Shown: piece after piece, positions 13,288-62,276 of the stretch
Layout of the letters: every line of letters begins with the position of its first letter
Numbering within the stretch: the first letter of the stretch is position 1
From: Microbacterium sp. Root53
GTDB taxonomy: Bacteria > Actinomycetota > Actinomycetes > Actinomycetales > Microbacteriaceae
Assembly (NCBI RefSeq): GCF_001426925.1
Contig: NZ_LMFR01000012.1
Coordinates: forward strand, 62,001-126,000
Reading direction: 5' to 3'
DNA: 64,000 nt
The notes under the pieces: generated by a model
What the model was told of the DNA's origin: nothing
Database searches by the model: none
Seen by the model: the letters and a program-made list of their open reading frames with translations, nothing else
Translations under genes and position numbers: made by a program

Positions 13288-13867
13288 GCTGTGCGGCGGG
13301 CTTCGCCGCGGCTCCCGACTCGAACGCGCGCGGGTACGCGCGGTGCAGCGCCAGGGCGAGCACGGTCGCGAGCACCACCTTGACGAGGTCGCCCGGGATG
13401 AAGATGAGGCTGCCGACGGCCGCCTCGTGCAGCGGCATGCCGAGGATCGCGGCCTGCACCGGGATGCCGAGGGCGTACACCACGCCGATGCCGCCGACGA
13501 GCGCGCCGAGCGCCGTGCGCCACCACGAGATGCGCGCGGCGGACGACTTCGCGATCAGGCCCGCGACGACGGCGCCGGGCAGCCAGCCGATCAGGTATCC
13601 GGCCGAGGGGCCGGCGAAGACGCCGAGACCGCCGCGTCCGCCCGAGAGCACGGGCAGCCCGACGGCGACGAGCACGAGCACGATCCCGACGGCGATCGCG
13701 GCGCGCTTCGGGCCGAGCACGACGCCCGCGAGCATCACGCCGAGCGTCTGCAGCGTGATCGGCACGGGGCCGACGGGGATGGCGCCGGCGATGCCCAGCA
13801 CGACGATGATCGCTGCGAAGACCGCGGCCCGGGCGAGATCGCGCCCTTCGAAACCCTTGACTGCCAT
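13280..13867 (-). CDS. bioY: biotin ECF transporter S component (BioY)
   Basis: 195-residue BioY substrate-binding membrane protein. It has about six helices, with the typical PVGPVPITLQTLGVMLAG loop after helix 1, then GGRGGLGVFAGPSAGYLIGW in the middle and FIPGDLVKVVLA near the end. BioY binds biotin with high affinity and couples to BioMN. The start is supported by AGAAGGAG, a strong ribosome binding site 5 bases before the ATG. First gene of the operon bioY-bioM-bioN-CHY, divergent from a TetR/BioQ-like gene with two operators in between. Confidence 0.95.
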   Translation of the reverse strand: MAVKGFEGRDLARAAVFAAIIVVLGIAGAIPVGPVPITLQTLGVMLAGVVLGPKRAAIAVGIVLVLVAVGLPVLSGGRGGLGVFAGPSAGYLIGWLPGAVVAGLIAKSSAARISWWRTALGALVGGIGVVYALGIPVQAAILGMPLHEAAVGSLIFIPGDLVKVVLATVLALALHRAYPRAFESGAAAKPAAQHA

Positions 13868-55326: not shown

Positions 55327-57078
55327 TCAGCCGTCGATCGCGCCGAGGGCCTCCCCAACGAGCACGCCGTCGCCCGCCTGCGCCGCGTGACGCAGCGTGC
55401 CCGCGCGGTGGGCGGGCACCCGGGTCTCCATCTTCATCGCGTCGATGACCGCGACGTCCTCCCCAGCGGCGACCGAGGCGCCGTCGTCGGCGAGCCATCG
55501 CACCAGCGTGCCGGGCACGGGTGCGACCAGCTCCGCCGGGTCCGCCTCCTCCCCCTCGACCGAGTCCCCGACCCCCGCCGACGCCGACGGCGCGCCGAGG
55601 CCGCCGAGCAGCGCCGCGGGCAGGCCGAGCACGACGCGCCGTCCGTCCAGCTCGATCGGGAAGCGAAGCAGCTCGTCCGCCGCGACCGGCTCCGGGCGCG
55701 CCTGCGCGTCGAGCCGCGGCATCAGCTCGGACTCGATCCACTGCGTGTGCACGGCGAACCCGGCGGTCGTGAACGCCGGGTCGTCGATCAGCTCCCGCGC
55801 GAACGGCGCGACGGTGGCGACGCCCTCGACGCCGAGCTCGCGCAGGGCCCGCCGGGCGCGCACGATCGCCGCGTCCCGATCCGCCGCATGCACGATCAGC
55901 TTCGCGATCAGGGAGTCGAATGCGGGCTGGACTGCATCGCCGGCCTCGAGACCGCCGTCCCAGCGCACGCCCGGGCCGCCGGGCACCCTCAGCGCCGACA
56001 CCCGGCCGGGACTGGGCAGGAACCCGCGGCCGGGGTCCTCCGCGTTGATCCGGAACTCGATCGCATGGCCGACGGGCTCCGGGGTGGAGCGGAACGTCAT
56101 CCCCTCACCGGCCGCGATGCGCAGCTGCTCCCGCACCAGGTCCACGCCGGTCACGGCCTCCGTGACCGGGTGCTCGACCTGGAGGCGCGTGTTGACCTCG
56201 AGGAACGAGATGACGCCGTCCGCGCCCATCAGGAACTCGACCGTGCCCGCCCCGCGGTACGACACCGCGGCGCAGATGTCGCGTGCGGCGTCGTGGATGC
56301 GGCGCCTCTGCTCCTCGGTCAGCCCGGGCGCCGGCGCCTCCTCGACGAGCTTCTGGTTGCGACGCTGCAGCGAGCAGTCCCGGTCGCCGACCACGACGAC
56401 CCCGCCCTCGCCGTCGCCGAGCACCTGCGCCTCGATGTGGCGCGGACGCTCCAGGAACCGCTCGACGAAGCACTCCCCGCGGCCGAAGGCGGCCACCGCC
56501 TCGCGCGACGCGGAGGCGAACGCCTCGGCGACATCCTCCATCCGGCGGGCGACCTTGAGGCCGCGGCCGCCGCCGCCGAACGCCGCCTTGATGGCGATCG
56601 GCAGGCCGTGCTCGGTCGCGAACGCGACGGCCTCCTCCGCCGACGCGAGCGGCCGGTCGGTGCCCGCCACCAGCGGCGCCCCGACGCTCTGGGCGATCCG
56701 GCGGGCCGTGATCTTGTCCCCGAGGCTCTCGATGCTCTCGGGCGTGGGGCCGATCCAGATGAGACCCGCCTCCTCGACGGCGCGCGCGAACGCGGCGCTC
56801 TCCGAGAGGAAGCCATACCCCGGGTGCACCGCGTCGGCGCCGGCGGCCCGCGCGGCGGCGATCAGCCGGTCGATCGAGAGATAGCTGTCGGCCGGCGTGG
56901 TGCCGCCCAGTCCCTGCGCCTCGTCGGCCAGACGCACGTGCAGCGCGTCGGCGTCCTGATCCGCGTACACCGCGACGGATGTCATCCCCGCCTCGGCGAG
57001 TGCCCGGATGACCCGCACGGCGATCTCGCCCCGGTTGGCGATCAGCACCTTCTGCACATCAGGCTCCTGTCTGGTCAT
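55327..57078 (-). CDS. biotin carboxylase fused to biotin carboxyl carrier domain
   Basis: 583-residue acyl-CoA/urea-carboxylase-type subunit. The biotin carboxylase domain (about 8-450) has KVLIANRGEIAVRVIRA, GYGFLSESAAFA, the ATP Gly loop FGGGGRGLKV, and VEFLMGADGVISFLEVNTRLQVEHP (quoted in part). The C-terminal BCCP domain (about 510-583) carries the biotinyl Lys in IDAMKMETRV. It would carboxylate biotin with ATP and bicarbonate. No acyl-CoA carboxyltransferase is nearby. The upstream overlapping gene is a PxpB/PxpC fusion related to the urea-carboxylase carboxyltransferase domains, so the two together look like a split urea-carboxylase-like enzyme. Confidence 0.88.
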   Translation of the reverse strand: MTRQEPDVQKVLIANRGEIAVRVIRALAEAGMTSVAVYADQDADALHVRLADEAQGLGGTTPADSYLSIDRLIAAARAAGADAVHPGYGFLSESAAFARAVEEAGLIWIGPTPESIESLGDKITARRIAQSVGAPLVAGTDRPLASAEEAVAFATEHGLPIAIKAAFGGGGRGLKVARRMEDVAEAFASASREAVAAFGRGECFVERFLERPRHIEAQVLGDGEGGVVVVGDRDCSLQRRNQKLVEEAPAPGLTEEQRRRIHDAARDICAAVSYRGAGTVEFLMGADGVISFLEVNTRLQVEHPVTEAVTGVDLVREQLRIAAGEGMTFRSTPEPVGHAIEFRINAEDPGRGFLPSPGRVSALRVPGGPGVRWDGGLEAGDAVQPAFDSLIAKLIVHAADRDAAIVRARRALRELGVEGVATVAPFARELIDDPAFTTAGFAVHTQWIESELMPRLDAQARPEPVAADELLRFPIELDGRRVVLGLPAALLGGLGAPSASAGVGDSVEGEEADPAELVAPVPGTLVRWLADDGASVAAGEDVAVIDAMKMETRVPAHRAGTLRHAAQAGDGVLVGEALGAIDG

Positions 57079-58660
57079 GTGCGCCGCGCTGAGGTGCGAC
57101 GGCTCGGAAGCGGATGCGGACGCCGGGCGGCAGCTGGCCGGCCAGGTCCAGGTCGGCGTCGATCACGGCGCCGATGATCGGGTAGCCGCCCGTCAGCGGA
57201 TGGTCCGGCAGGAACAGCACGGGCTGCCCGTCCGGCGGGACCTGGATCGCGCCGGTCACGGCTCCCTCGCTGGGAAGCTCGCCGGGGACCGCGCGCTCCA
57301 GCGGCACGGTGCCCGCGAGCCGGATGCCGACGCGGTCCGACCGCGGCGTGACCGTCCACTCCTGCTCGAGGAGCGTGCGCACGCCGGCGGCCGTGAACCA
57401 GTCATCGCGTGGCCCGAGCACGACGCGGAGGTCGACGACCTCGCCGGCGACGGGAAGGGGGTCGCGCGGAGCCGGCACCGGCTGCACGGCGGCGGAACCC
57501 GCGCGGGGGCCGTGGAGCGGGATGACCATGCCCGCGGCGAGCGGGGCGCCGCCGAGCTCCATGGGCCCCACACCGGCGAGCGTGTCGCTGGACAGGCTGC
57601 CCAGGGCCGGCGAGAGGTCGATGCCCCCTCGCACCGCGATCACCGCGCGCAGCCCATCCCGTGCGTGGCCGAGGCGCAGCTCGTCCCCACTCTCGACGGA
57701 CGCCGGCGCCCCGTGCGGCACGGGCAGCTCGACCCCGTCCGTCCTGGCGATCACGGCATCCGCGCGGGCCCCTGTCACGGCGACGACCCCCGGGCCGCGG
57801 AAGCGGAGCACGGCGCCGCCTCCGGCCAGCTCGAAGGCGGCCGCGCCGGGACGATTGCCGACGGCGACGTTCGCGTCGCGAAGGGCCCTGCGGTCGGCGA
57901 CCCCGGACGCCGAGACCCCGAGCGCAGCGTGCCCGGGACGCCCGAGATCCTGGATCACCAGCTGCAGGCCCGGGCGCACCACCTCGACGGCGAAGGGGCC
58001 GTGGTGCGGCGCGGGTGGCGCCGGAGGCGGGAGCTCGACGCGCTCCCGTGACGCACGCTCGAACCGCACCACGGCGCCGGGCTCGAGCAGGGCCGGAGGC
58101 TCCCGACGCAGGTCCCACATGACGGCGTCCGTGCGTCCGATGAGCTGCCAGCCGCCGGGGCTCTCTCGCGGATACACACCGGAGAAGTGCCCCGCGAGCC
58201 CCACGGACCCGGCCGGGATGCGCGTGCGCGGGGACGAGCGGCGCGGAACGTCGAAGATCGGATCGTCGCCCACCAGGTACCCGAACCCGGGCGCGTACCC
58301 GGTGAACGCGACGCGCCAGGTCGCCCCGAGATGCCGCGCCACGACCTCGTCGGCCGGGATCCCCAGATGGCGCGCCACCTCGTCGAGGTCCTCGCCGTCG
58401 TACCGGACGGGCAGCGTCACGGTGCCGGCCGCGACCGCCGCGGCCCGCGTGGCGCTCAGGGCCGCGATCCGCGTGCGCAGCTCGGTGCCGGTGATCGCGA
58501 GCGGGTCGAAGCGCACGAGCACCGTGCGCGCCGCCGGCACGAGCTCGTGCACACCGGGCAGCCCGGCGGCGAGGAGCGCAGCATGCAGGCTCATGGAGCC
58601 CTCGAGGTCATCCTCCTCGACCAGCAGCGCCCGGTCCGAGGCGGAGAGGACCCGCCTCAC
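57059..58660 (-). CDS. PxpB-PxpC fusion (5-oxoprolinase / urea amidolyase carboxyltransferase family)
   Basis: 533-residue fusion of two domains. The first (about 1-210, AHS1/KipI/PxpB) has [19 protein letters not shown] and [20 protein letters not shown]. The second (about 228-533, AHS2/KipA/PxpC) has [35 protein letters not shown]-like text and [20 protein letters not shown]. In most bacteria these are separate subunits that with PxpA cleave 5-oxoproline to glutamate using ATP. The same two domains end urea carboxylase. GTG start overlaps the DUF1445 gene as GTGA, and its end overlaps the biotin carboxylase gene by 20 bases. Confidence 0.88.
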
Positions 58661-59445
58661 GCGAGGTACTCCGAGTCCGGCACGTCCGTCACGAACATGT
58701 GCCCGGGCGCGTGCGTCAGCGCGAACGGAGGACGCGACGCCATGATCGCCGCCTGCGGCGTCACGCCGCACGCCCAGAACACGGGGACCTCTCCGTCGCG
58801 CATCTCGGGCGCGTCGCCGAAGTCCGGTCGTCCGAGATCCGTCACTCCGAGCGCCGCCGGGTCGCCCACGTGCACGGGCGCCCCGTGCACCGCGGGATAC
58901 CGGCCCGAGATCCTCACCGCGTCGGCCACCCGGTCCGCCGCCACCGGTCGCATGGAGACGACCATCTCGCCCCGCAGCCGCCCGGCCGGAAGGCACTGCC
59001 GGGAGGTGCGGTACATCGGCACGTTCCGTCCGAGCTCGCGGTGACGGATCGGGATGCCGGCGTCGGTCAGGCCCGCTTCGAACGTGAAGCTGCAGCCGAT
59101 CAGGAAGGACACCAGATCCGGGTGCTCCGCCCAGGCGGCGGACGCATCGCTCGTCTCCTCTGCGAGCTCCCCGTCGCGCCACACCCGGTAGGCGGGGAGG
59201 TCCGTCCGCAGGTCCGATCCCGGCGCGAGCGTCGACTCGACGGCGCCGGCGTCGAGCACCTCCAGGACGGGACAGGGCTTGGGGTTCCGCTGGGCGAACA
59301 GGAGCACGTCGTACGCCCAGTCCGCCGGCACGGCGATGAGGTTGGCCTGGACGAGACCGTGCGCGACGCCGCTCGTGGGGGCGACGAGACCGCCGCGGTA
59401 GGCCGCGCGGGCGGCGCGCGCCTCGTCGACGACCGCACGCGTCAT
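58657..59445 (-). CDS. putative hydro-lyase, DUF1445 / D-glutamate cyclase-like (YcsI family)
   Basis: 262-residue member of the DUF1445 family. The segments [41 protein letters not shown] and [20 protein letters not shown] with [11 protein letters not shown] are diagnostic; conserved Cys occur in IGCSF and WACGV. A mammalian relative converts D-glutamate to 5-oxo-D-proline, and B. subtilis ycsI sits in the ycsFGI-kipIA cluster, so a role in making or using 5-oxoproline is reasonable. Overlaps both neighbours by 4 bases. Confidence 0.9.
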
Positions 59446-60212
59446 CGCGCTCCCTCCGCGAACGGCGCGATCCGGATGCCCCCGCTCTCGAGCAGCGCCC
59501 GCGTAGCAGCCGCCATCGCGATGGCGCCCGCGCTGTCGCCGTGCACGCAGATCGAATCCGCGCGCACCCGCACGTCGGTGCCGTCGATCGCTCGGATCAC
59601 CCCCTCGCGTGCAAGGCGCAGCATGCGCGTCGAGACCTCGTCGGGGTCGTGCAGCACGGAGCCTGCCTCGCTGCGCGAGACCAGGTCCCCGGAGGGCGTG
59701 TAGGCGCGGTCCGCGAACGCCTCCGCAGCGGTCGCGAGCCCGGCCCGCTCGGCGACGTCGAGGACGACACCGCCTGCCAGTCCGAGCAGCACGAGCGACG
59801 GGTCCACGGCCCGGACCGCGGCGACGACGTCGCGCGCCTGCCGCTCGTCGCGCGCGATCGTGTTGTAGAGCGCGCCGTGCGGCTTGACGTAGCGGACGCG
59901 CCCGCCGACCCCGGCCGCCAGGCCGAGCAGCGCGCCGAGCTGGTACTCGACGTGGGCCTGAAGCGTCGCGGAGTCGACGTCCATGGCGTTGCGGCCGAAG
60001 CCCTCGTAGTCGCGGTAGCCGGGGTGGGCGCCGATCGTGACGCCGTGCGCGACGGCGGCTGCGAGCGTGTCGCGGATCCCCTCCGGGCTGCCGGCGTGGA
60101 ACCCGCAGGCCACGTTCGCGCTCGTCACGATGCCGAGCATGGCCCCGTCGTCGGCCACGATCCGGTCGGGCGTGTTCTCACCGAGGTCGGAGTTGAGGTC
60201 GATCGACGTCAC
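59442..60212 (-). CDS. pxpA: 5-oxoprolinase subunit PxpA (LamB/YcsF family)
   Basis: 256-residue LamB/YcsF protein. The N-terminal [42 protein letters not shown] and [15 protein letters not shown] motifs hold the conserved Asp, His and Asn residues of the family, and [11 protein letters not shown] ends the set. With PxpB and PxpC it forms the ATP-dependent prokaryotic 5-oxoprolinase. GTG start 3 bases after the transporter stop. Confidence 0.92.
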
Positions 60213-60215
60213 GGG

Positions 60216-61472
60216 TCAGCCGCCGATGCCGATGAACGCGAAGATCGGGCCGATCGAGACGGCTCCCATGTACCAGGTCAGCAGGGTGGCGAGCGTGCCC
60301 ACGACGAGCAGCCAGACCGGGTAGCGGTAGCCGCCCAGGATGTCCCGCTGCCGGAACCAGCCGATGTACATGAAGATCGTCATGCCGATGGGGAGGATGA
60401 GCCCGTTGAAGCCGCCCACGAACACCAGGATGGCGGCGGGAGCCGCGCCGATGGCCAGGTAGAAGCCGAGCGAGACCACGATGAAGGCGACGGTCGTGAT
60501 CTGCAGCGGCCATCCCGATCCGAGCTTCTTCGAGAAGGTCGAGATGAACGTCGCGGACGTGTACGCGGCCCCGATGACCGAGGTGATCGCCGCGGCCCAG
60601 AAGATCGCGCCGAAGATGCGGATGCCGGCGTCGCCGAGGACCGCGCCGAACGCCTGGCCGGCAGGGTTCGCCGCCTGGCTCGACAGGTCGAGGGTCACGC
60701 CGGAGGCGACGACGCCGAGGATCGCGAGGAAGAGCACATAGCGCATGACGCCCGTGACGAGGATTCCGCTGATCGACGCGCGATGCACGGACGCCACGTG
60801 CTCGGGGCCGGTCTTGCCGGACTCCAGGTAGCGGTGCGCTCCCGCGTAGGTGATGTACCCGCCGACCGTTCCGCCGACGATGGTCGTGATGGTGGCGAAG
60901 TTCAGCTCGTCCGGGACGAACGTCTGGCGCAGCGCGTCGCCGACGGGCGGCTGGGACACGATCGCGACGATGAGGGTCAGGACGATCATGACGATGCCGA
61001 GCACCATGACGACGGCGTCGACCACGCGCCCCGCGCGCTTGTAGAGGAAGATGCCGATCGCGAGGAGCGCCGAGAGCAGCCCTCCGATCTTGGCGTCGAT
61101 GCCGAGCAGCGCGTTCAGGCCGAGGCCCGCGCCCGCGATGTTGCCGATGTTGAAGGCGAGGCCGCCGATCACGATGAGGGTCGCGAGCACATGCCCCGAG
61201 AACGGGATCGCCGAGTTCGCGAGATCGCCGGCGCGCTTTCCCGAGACCGTGATCATCCGCCACACGTTCATCTGCAGCGCGAAGTCGATCAGCACCGAGG
61301 CGAGGATCGCGAACGCGAACGCGGCGCCGAGCTGGGCGGTGAACGTGGCGGTCTGGGTGATGAAGCCGGGTCCGATGGCCGAGGTGGCCATCAGGAAGAT
61401 CGCGCCGAGGATCGGTCCGCGACGCGAGCGGGCGAACGTCTTCGCCCGCTCGGCGGTGGTGGTCTCGCTCAT
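60216..61472 (-). CDS. NRAMP-fold transporter of the 5-oxoproline cluster (YcsG-like)
   Basis: 418-residue membrane protein with about 11 helices of the NRAMP (APC) fold: GAIFLMATSAIGPGFITQTA in helix 1, LAFNIGNIAGAGLGLNALLG in helix 3, YITYAGAHRYLESGKTG in helix 6. Canonical NRAMP metal transporters have DPGN in helix 1 and a Met before a His in helix 6. Here helix 1 reads GPGF and no Met is at the helix 6 site, so metal transport is unlikely. Its place ahead of pxpA suggests import of 5-oxoproline or a related acid. First gene of the operon, with AGAGGAG as ribosome binding site. Confidence 0.85.
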   Translation of the reverse strand: MSETTTAERAKTFARSRRGPILGAIFLMATSAIGPGFITQTATFTAQLGAAFAFAILASVLIDFALQMNVWRMITVSGKRAGDLANSAIPFSGHVLATLIVIGGLAFNIGNIAGAGLGLNALLGIDAKIGGLLSALLAIGIFLYKRAGRVVDAVVMVLGIVMIVLTLIVAIVSQPPVGDALRQTFVPDELNFATITTIVGGTVGGYITYAGAHRYLESGKTGPEHVASVHRASISGILVTGVMRYVLFLAILGVVASGVTLDLSSQAANPAGQAFGAVLGDAGIRIFGAIFWAAAITSVIGAAYTSATFISTFSKKLGSGWPLQITTVAFIVVSLGFYLAIGAAPAAILVFVGGFNGLILPIGMTIFMYIGWFRQRDILGGYRYPVWLLVVGTLATLLTWYMGAVSIGPIFAFIGIGG

Positions 61473-61537
61473 GTCGTGCTCCTCTGGGGAAAGGGCCTGC
61501 GGGATGTGGGAAGCGGTCGCGGTGGGGCGCGCGACCT

Positions 61538-61574
61538 GATGTCGAACAACATCCCACGGATTGTTGAACAATCC
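61538..61574. promoter_or_regulatory. GntR operator region
   Basis: GGATTGTTGAACAATCC at 61558-61574 is a perfect 17-base palindrome. GATGTCGAACAACATC at 61538-61553 is an imperfect relative sharing GAACAA and ATC. Both lie between the divergent NRAMP-like operon and the GntR gene, which is the expected place for its binding sites. Confidence 0.7.
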
Positions 61575-61622
61575 AAGTCGTTTTTGTTTCAATCCTGTTG
61601 CGGCGCGCTCGCGGGCCCGCCG

Positions 61623-61628
61623 TAGGAT
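61623..61628 (+). promoter_or_regulatory. -10 hexamer TAGGAT of the GntR gene
   Basis: TAGGAT ends 6 bases before the ATG at 61635; leaderless pattern. Confidence 0.5.
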
Positions 61629-61634
61629 TCCTGC

Positions 61635-62276
61635 ATGCCCGCCCACGACGAGACGCTCGCCGACGTGCTGCGGCAGCGGATCATCGCCGGTGATTTCGCG
61701 CCCGGCACGCGGTTGTCGGAGACCTCGCTCTCCGAGTTCTTCGGCGTCTCGCGCAACACGCTGCGCGAGGCGTTCCGCGTCCTGGTCGAGCAGGGCCTGA
61801 TCGAGCACATCCCCCATCGGGGCGCGTCCGTCGCGTCGCCCACGGTCGCCGACGTGATCGACATCTATCGCGCGCGTCGCACCATAGAACCCGCCGTGCT
61901 CGCCGCGGGGTCCCCGCTGCACCCTGCCGTGGACGCGATGCGCGACGCGGTCGAGGCGAGCGAGGCGGCCCTGTCCGCGAAGGACTGGCGGGCGGTCGGC
62001 ACCTCCAACATGGCGTTCCACGCGGCCATCGTGGCGCTGGCGGACAGCCCGCGCCTCGGACGTCTGTTCCGCGACATCGCCGCGGAGCTCCGCCTGGCGT
62101 TCCTCGAGATCGACAGCCCCGAGGCGCTGCACGCCCCCTACGTGCCCCGGAACCGGGCCGTGCTCGAGGCATTCCTGACCGAAGGCGGACCGGCCGCATC
62201 CGACGAGCTGCACGCGTACCTCGTCCATTCCGAGCAGACCGTGCTCGGGGCGTTCACGCGGCTCGGACGCCGCTAA
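61635..62276 (+). CDS. GntR family regulator with FCD domain
   Basis: 213-residue regulator of the FadR subfamily. Winged HTH at about 5-70 (TRLSETSLSEFFGVSRNTLR, EQGLIEHIPHRGASVASP) and an all-helical FCD ligand domain at about 75-205, with Asp/His metal-ligand candidates in DIYRARRTIEP, NMAFHAAIVALADSPRL and HSEQTVLGAF. FCD regulators sense small carboxylic acids, which fits control of the divergent 5-oxoproline operon. It replaces the IclR-type KipR of the Bacillus locus. Its stop overlaps the coaE stop by 4 bases (convergent). Confidence 0.9.
   Translation: MPAHDETLADVLRQRIIAGDFAPGTRLSETSLSEFFGVSRNTLREAFRVLVEQGLIEHIPHRGASVASPTVADVIDIYRARRTIEPAVLAAGSPLHPAVDAMRDAVEASEAALSAKDWRAVGTSNMAFHAAIVALADSPRLGRLFRDIAAELRLAFLEIDSPEALHAPYVPRNRAVLEAFLTEGGPAASDELHAYLVHSEQTVLGAFTRLGRR

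Follow-up and report, generated by a model that had tools for sequence, protein, structure and literature searches.

A biotin carboxylase subunit in a 5-oxoproline operon of Microbacterium sp. Root53 and the case for a biotin-dependent 5-oxoprolinase

We examined a stretch of 64,000 nucleotides from Microbacterium sp. Root53 (contig NZ_LMFR01000012.1, positions 62,001 to 126,000; the whole stretch is called the window below) and, within it, an operon in which the genes for the 5-oxoprolinase components PxpA, PxpB and PxpC are joined by a gene for a biotin carboxylase (BC) fused to a biotin carboxyl carrier protein (BCCP). On balance, we think that this operon takes up and degrades 5-oxoproline, and that its ring-opening enzyme has a dedicated biotin arm, i.e. 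is a biotin-dependent 5-oxoprolinase. 5-Oxoproline is a damage product expected in every cell, and phosphorylation as the use that PxpABC makes of ATP is assumed. A conserved BC-BCCP beside a 5-oxoproline-type operator offers a concrete alternative, namely activation by N-carboxylation. The occurrence of BC beside pxp genes is more general than could be seen from the window alone.

Gene content of the operon

An earlier note, made from the letters of this DNA, had named a divergent GntR-FCD regulator, an NRAMP-fold transporter, PxpA, a DUF1445 protein, a PxpB-PxpC fusion (PxpBC) and a BC-BCCP subunit of 583 residues. We recovered all of these at 55327-62276 as open reading frames with Pfam matches over the gathering scores, the last of them at the length given (Table 1). 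The five genes other than the regulator form a tightly packed minus-strand run from 61472 to 55327. With the starts refined (ATG at 61472 for the transporter, GTG at 58660 for PxpBC), the close spacing that the note had described is borne out: 3 nt separate the transporter gene from pxpA, and the remaining neighbours overlap, by 4 nt for PxpA/DUF1445, 4 nt for DUF1445/PxpBC and 20 nt for PxpBC/BC. DUF1445 is D-glutamate cyclase in current Pfam naming. Membership in PxpABC is indicated by PF03746, PF02682 and PF02626 together, all over their gathering scores, and PxpBC also scores above the cut-off of the broader model TIGR00724 (238.2 vs 230.2 bits). Judging by the Pfam matches, PxpBC is the sole carboxyltransferase of the operon, and BC, BCCP and AHS-type carboxyltransferase domains are all found in the window, on two chains.

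The BC-BCCP protein has intact GGGGRG, RHIEAQ and EVNTRLQVEH strings, which we take to be the ATP-grasp motifs of BC, and an intact DAMKM, presumably the biotinyl-lysine motif; the predicted biotinyl residue is Lys549, in VIDAMKMETR. The remark that the strain imports biotin was borne out for BioY: the host genome has a single BioY match, located in the window, and two matches to a BioB model, both under its cut-off.

Table 1. Features of the operon and a possible source of its cofactor
Feature	Position	Strand	Basis
GntR-FCD regulator, PxpR-like, 213 aa	61635..62276	+	Pfam GntR and FCD; divergent from the operon; adjoining operator with the core of the C. glutamicum PxpR site
17-bp inverted repeat GGATTGTTGAACAATCC, PxpR-type operator	61558..61574	no strand	15/17 bases identical to the tested C. 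glutamicum site
NRAMP-fold transporter, PxpT/YcsG-like, 418 aa	60216..61472	-	PF01566; start read from sequence
PxpA (LamB/YcsF), 256 aa	59442..60212	-	PF03746; NCBIfam PRK05406.1-3 over cut-off
D-glutamate cyclase (DUF1445/YcsI-like), 262 aa	58657..59445	-	PF07286; PRK05463 over cut-off
PxpB-PxpC fusion (AHS1-AHS2), 533 aa	57059..58660	-	PF02682 and PF02626; TIGR00724 over cut-off; AlphaFold 2 model; residue comparison
BC-BCCP subunit, AccA3-like, 583 aa	55327..57078	-	Biotin_carb_N, CPSase_L_D2, Biotin_carb_C and Biotin_lipoyl; motifs; tree position
BioY biotin transporter domain, possible cofactor source	13340..13771	-	PF02632 match

The ycs-kip operon of Bacillus subtilis, which we take to run ycsF-ycsG-ycsI-kipI-kipA and to hold no BC-BCCP, shares the PxpA, transporter, DUF1445 and PxpB/PxpC functions with the window; its PxpB and PxpC are separate, whereas those of the window are fused. 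PMC13274462 tells of the roles of YcsG and PxpABC in B. subtilis. The same text describes the pxpR-pxpTABC system of Corynebacterium glutamicum, which resembles the window in its divergent GntR regulator, operator core, NRAMP-fold transporter, PxpA, PxpB and PxpC, and differs in that neither the word carboxylase nor DUF1445 appears in the searched text of the paper.

Biotin carboxylase genes are linked to pxp genes

Of 246 genomes in an even draw across the host's phylum, 57 had PxpA, with 61 places listed. We fetched stretches around 55 of these, one being the host's own second cluster on a contig designated C4; the window was already at hand, and four partial matches (genomes G184, G200 and G227) and one place at a contig end (G163) were left out. 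This gave 54 loci from genomes other than the host's; both PxpA and PxpC are encoded at 49, and 15 of the 49 have a BC within 6 kb: one of the window type (L032), one adjacent to an AccA3-type gene (L033), seven of a class II described below, five of a Lactiplantibacillus plantarum type and one unclassed. To this draw were added the best 80 among the listed PxpA-similar named loci, 40 loci hand-chosen from the order, 13 plasmid loci, E. coli MG1655 and the host's two clusters. The full set thus has 190 loci, 168 with PxpA and PxpC, 155 of them evaluable; phyla other than the host's were sampled through PxpA similarity and plasmid records only.

A BC lies within 6 kb in 81 of the 155 evaluable loci and in none of the 18 with a lone PxpA (Fisher p 5e-6, which ignores kinship and the choice of loci). 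In all 57 window-type loci that have it, BC is on the strand of PxpBC, and in 30 of these the two genes overlap, start codon choice being approximate. The chance adjacency that the earlier note had allowed for is ruled out by these figures together with the retention of BC in one clade (27/27 rows, see below). Among named loci, no BC was seen within 6 kb in E. coli K-12, Nocardiopsis, Nocardioides and Streptomyces. The gene order of the window is annotated in Shinella sp. HZN7 and one Klebsiella pneumoniae plasmid, and was found with hidden Markov models in Pseudomonas chlororaphis (L070), Aureimonas (L083), Shinella lacus (L086), a Rhizobiales isolate (L098) and P. rhizoryzae (L104). BC and BCCP also accompany pxp genes in different gene orders in Lactiplantibacillus plantarum, Bradyrhizobium, Rhizobium, Agrobacterium, Diaphorobacter and the archaeon Halomarina, and urea carboxylase, present at 4 loci, is a natural single-chain fusion of the same parts.

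A 5-oxoproline-type operator precedes the operon

In C. glutamicum, PxpT, PxpABC and the 5-oxoproline-sensing repressor PxpR are one system, whose operator agattgttcaacaatct was tested by mutation (PMC13274462). Its counterpart in the window, GGATTGTTGAACAATCC, stands between the gntR and transporter genes and is a perfect inverted repeat around a central base. It is the sole match in the 64 kb at up to 2 mismatches, and 100 shuffles gave none. Allowing up to 1 mismatch, we found the 13-base core of the operator no more than 450 nt from the start of a cluster gene in 45 of the 81 loci with BC vs 10 of the 109 others, which include loci with cut ends or without PxpC; the 36 BC-bearing loci in which the core was absent at these settings include the class II ones. 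Because the core is so often present, window-type operons with BC, in Pseudomonadota and Actinomycetota alike, look like part of a 5-oxoproline regulon, as far as sequence can tell. Likewise, since the window has a PxpR operator, the lactam that its enzyme opens is most likely 5-oxoproline, to which the PxpT/PxpA gene context is a further link. In three Arthrobacter loci (L093, L109 and L130), PxpR-type operators precede two separate operons, PxpABC-BC and transporter-D-glutamate cyclase; the regulon is split there, yet kept together by the operator ahead of both parts.

The BC-BCCP subunit is related to AccA3

The best full-length relatives of the window's BC-BCCP in the PDB are 5mlk ('Acetyl-CoA carboxylase') and AccA3. 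We constructed phylogenetic trees of BCs from 106 rows, 44 of which were used in a more careful tree. Here 'AccA3' denotes the best full-length BC-BCCP matches of actinobacterial genomes; 20 were fetched under this label, and one (L228) that fell outside the clade in the first tree was omitted from the careful one. In the careful tree the window BC clusters with BCs linked to pxp genes (support 99/98), and the AccA3 BCs, with that of L033, form a separate clade; both sit within one 34-row group (100/100). The approximately unbiased (AU) test rejected (p 0.0029) a grouping of the window BC with the AccA3 of its own family, a group chosen after the first tree. The BC-BCCP is related to the AccA3 subunit of actinobacteria but specialised, and a plain AccA3 duplicate was rejected on the careful tree. 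The BC of L033, an AccA3-type gene that lies divergently about 1.6 kb from pxpABC on contig C161, was dropped as a dedicated pxp BC, as it falls among AccA3 in the trees.

The BCs of the other pxp types fall outside the 34-row group, with weak support for the deeper branches, which suggests that BC was recruited at least twice. Pairwise distances between BC and PxpC correlate (Spearman 0.81, 57 loci); those between PxpA and PxpC do so at 0.74, and common descent therefore accounts for much of the former value. Each of the 20 relatives that we searched encodes one or more full-length BC-BCCP proteins that are 56-61% identical to that of the window. The best one is at 56-59% in 16 of them; six of these are in the tree, all among AccA3.

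PxpBC has a carboxyltransferase fold and homologues bound to an AccA3 complex

The AlphaFold 2 model of PxpBC (pLDDT, the predicted local distance difference test, 93.5) matches M. smegmatis MSMEG_0435, an AHS2 protein (Z 39.3), urea amidolyase (34.6) and urea carboxylase (25.4). The AHS fusion therefore shares the fold of the urea-carboxylase carboxyltransferase domain, as the earlier note's comparison anticipated, with other PxpBC-type proteins as its closest folds. Urea carboxylase/amidolyase (KlUC, TIGR02712) likewise combines BC, BCCP and an AHS2-AHS1 carboxyltransferase, but as one polypeptide in the order BC-PxpC-PxpB-BCCP, and is coupled to allophanate hydrolase rather than PxpA. It also differs at its catalytic Lys1605, the likely general base of the K. 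lactis enzyme (PMC5770610). At this position the five urea carboxylases that cover the region and all 15 class II rows have Lys. The window's PxpBC has Arg140 there, so that a urea-carboxylase Lys in its PxpB is ruled out, and Arg is also found in 6/6 L. plantarum-type and 3/3 E. coli-like rows.

PDB entry 9yx5 is titled as a long chain acyl-CoA carboxylase complex of Mycobacterium smegmatis with MSMEG_0435-MSMEG_0436 bound. By its title and chain sequences it contains AccA3, two chains called 'propionyl-CoA carboxylase beta chain', which correspond to D4 and D5 in the chain naming of entry 9t97, and the AHS pair, which is 43-48% identical to the window's PxpC and PxpB. These contents and the homology imply that a homologous AHS-pair contact exists, with a shared BC subunit. 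The assembly is thus like the proposed one in that AHS1/AHS2 homologues are complexed with a BC-BCCP subunit related to the window's; it differs in having two acyl-CoA carboxylase beta chains as well, and no PxpA chain was found in it. Our literature search found no paper on 9yx5.

In a FastTree phylogeny of PxpC and PxpB (171 rows), the window falls in a 67-row clade with support 98, in which 57 rows have BC, nine do not and one is unsure. All 27 Pseudomonadota rows of this clade, chosen by PxpA similarity and from plasmids, have BC (L095 ends before PxpC and is not counted), vs 31 of 98 evaluable actinobacterial rows, L033 included, in a wider 130-row clade (Fisher p 1e-11, ignoring kinship). 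For PxpA, PxpB and PxpC of the window, the nearest proteins come from the same genus and have no adjacent BC; for BC, the D-glutamate cyclase and the transporter, they come from BC-bearing loci elsewhere. Since the nearest relatives differ in this way, the operon may be a mosaic, or its relatives may have lost genes.

Proposed mechanism and alternative explanations

We propose that PxpR would leave its operator on binding 5-oxoproline, as at the C. glutamicum site, and that the NRAMP-fold protein, by analogy with its homologues, would import 5-oxoproline while the D-glutamate cyclase may feed in D-glutamate. The BC domain, whose motifs are in place, would use ATP and bicarbonate to carboxylate biotin on Lys549. 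PxpBC, with its urea-carboxylase carboxyltransferase fold, would transfer the carboxyl group from biotin to the lactam and so make the ring amide hydrolysable; PxpA would open the ring, and the carbamate on glutamate would be lost as CO2. Overall, 5-oxoproline would be converted to glutamate at the expense of ATP, with bicarbonate serving as an activator that is recycled; this is the logic of urea carboxylase in split form. A split urea-carboxylase-like enzyme acting on a lactam or amide is what the earlier note had suggested, and the idea is plausible, backed by the solved homologous assembly 9yx5: the linkage of BC to pxp, the AHS pair on a BC/BCCP complex and the operator's indication of 5-oxoproline all agree with it, and the general-base Lys of urea carboxylase does not carry over.

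A number of observations weigh against a biotin-dependent 5-oxoprolinase. Arg occupies the K1605 position in all 58 window-type rows with BC (L033 included) and equally in all 71 rows without it, and our residue comparison found no PxpBC column that cleanly separates the two sets; the most divergent columns, PxpC 169 and 287, overlap by 13 and 16%, and the BC-less rows inside the clade are mixed there. The note's further claim that the chemistry departs from that of standard PxpABC is not supported by these comparisons. The nearest PxpBC rows to the window are three same-genus genomes (L147, L149 and L150) with no adjacent BC, and the model is closer to the BC-less TTHA0988 (Z 38.5) and E. coli YbgK (35.6) than to urea carboxylase. 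In the phylum-wide draw, 34 of the 49 loci, nine of them with a cut flank, have no BC within 6 kb, and only L032 among the other 15 has a dedicated window-type BC. Equivalog models for PxpB (TIGR00370, 121.3 vs a cut-off of 145.55 bits), PxpC (NF045499, 175 vs 500) and urea carboxylase (TIGR02712, 535.1 for BC and 181 for PxpBC vs 1303.85) all score the window's proteins below cut-off. The contact in 9yx5 could be regulatory or fortuitous. B. subtilis PxpABC, in the 2017 work of Niehaus, is reportedly active on mixing recombinant PxpA, B and C. Finally, C. glutamicum grows on 5-oxoproline with pxpTABC, and the paper mentions no carboxylase (PMC13274462).

In a first alternative, PxpABC would open 5-oxoproline via phosphorylation, a model told in the introduction of PMC13274462, and BC-BCCP would add a second, biotin-dependent activity on the same PxpBC scaffold, e.g. 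carboxylation of another amide or a pathway product. The Arg in place of the carboxylase Lys, the BC-less close relatives and the want of a clean residue difference all suit this explanation, which we nevertheless judge unlikely, if deserving of serious attention: it sits poorly with the 27 of 27 Pseudomonadota rows that keep BC, the gene overlap in 30 of 57 loci and an operator that indicates 5-oxoproline as the signal. That the lactam is something other than 5-oxoproline seems improbable to us. A related class II cluster lies beside γ-aminobutyrate (GABA) transaminase and succinate-semialdehyde dehydrogenase genes in Agrobacterium sp. T29, which would fit 2-pyrrolidone, and the host carries such a class II cluster on contig C4; the window's cluster, however, is of another class, with a PxpT-like transporter, a D-glutamate cyclase and a PxpR operator. 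We give very little credence to the remaining explanation, in which BC-BCCP would be an extra copy of AccA3 that ended up next to pxp genes and works for acyl-CoA carboxylases. Its relatives in the PDB, its place in one larger clade with AccA3 and the AccA3 identity of the BC adjacent to pxp in L033 speak for it, but the window BC groups with pxp-linked BCs to the exclusion of its own family's AccA3, such BCs accompany pxp genes in two phyla, in many cases near an operator of the 5-oxoproline type, and PxpBC is the operon's only carboxyltransferase.

The data fit a picture in which actinobacterial PxpBC without a BC of its own can make use of AccA3, the BC encoded in the operon being a dedicated version; if the window's enzyme uses biotin, its BC-less actinobacterial relatives may use it too, via AccA3. 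More tentatively, and with less conviction than we hold for the operon itself, much of the bacterial PxpABC family, BC-less clusters included, might be a biotin-dependent lactam carboxylase-hydrolase, in which PxpBC borrows AccA3 in Actinomycetota and needs its own AccA3-like BC-BCCP in hosts without AccA3. This would explain why BC is universal in the Pseudomonadota rows and present in fewer than a third of the actinobacterial ones, why the pxp BC is such close kin of AccA3, and why the M. smegmatis AHS1/AHS2 pair is bound to a complex with AccA3. In that case the accepted mechanism, phosphorylation, would not be the right one for this branch. A biotin-dependent 5-oxoprolinase in the window would in itself give 'allophanate hydrolase subunits' a carboxyltransferase role, offer a reason why the mycobacterial acyl-CoA carboxylase binds so odd a partner, and hint at a larger family of lactamases that depend on biotin.

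Our literature search turned up no paper in which BC is treated as partnering PxpABC; the link may have been published elsewhere. One paper lists an additional BCCP-BC pair and, separately, pxpB/pxpC among the features specific to Lp. pentosus (PMC12427679), and another names accC and pxpA apart (PMC7642360).

Other clusters with pxp genes

The class II clusters have the order A-BCCP-BC-B-C (host contig C4, Agrobacterium sp. T29, Diaphorobacter; Halomarina in another order). They are like the window in encoding PxpA, PxpB/PxpC, BC and BCCP, and differ in that BCCP and BC are separate, BC is of another lineage, PxpBC is sister to urea carboxylase (support 100, the host's C4 cluster included) and the catalytic Lys is present; their BCCPs have biotin motifs such as EIMKQF and EVMKSF. 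The host's cluster, at C4:4663-8892, runs PxpA-BCCP-BC-PxpB-PxpC, its PxpB has the Lys-Tyr motif of urea carboxylase, and a protein matching Amidase (PF01425) is encoded close downstream on the opposite strand. The cluster on the Agrobacterium sp. T29 plasmid (L206, 6992-14266), followed by the GABA transaminase and succinate-semialdehyde dehydrogenase genes, may provide a route for 2-pyrrolidone that depends on biotin.

E. coli PxpBC groups with two rhizobial clusters that have BC (support 99). These plasmid loci, L200 and L205, hold its closest PxpBC relatives in the set in operons with both BC and BCCP, which raises the question of whether E. coli uses AccB/AccC.

A PxpA relative occurs in 98 Klebsiella plasmid records of the plasmid collection. 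The one such plasmid that we read (L197) carries a whole window-type operon with an IS1 transposase gene beside it and a second gene of BC-BCCP type close to a gene for a DUF1989 protein. Three other plasmids (L198, L199 and L204), one of them in Thermus with the gene beside a CRISPR type I-E operon, have a lone PxpA with no PxpB, PxpC or BC nearby. Genes for a biotin-dependent carboxyltransferase/carboxylase and PxpA-like proteins also stand together in a rhodopsin cluster of Pelagibacterales, where the authors guess that they degrade urea (PMC10308929); such clusters are possibly another BC-bearing pxp type.

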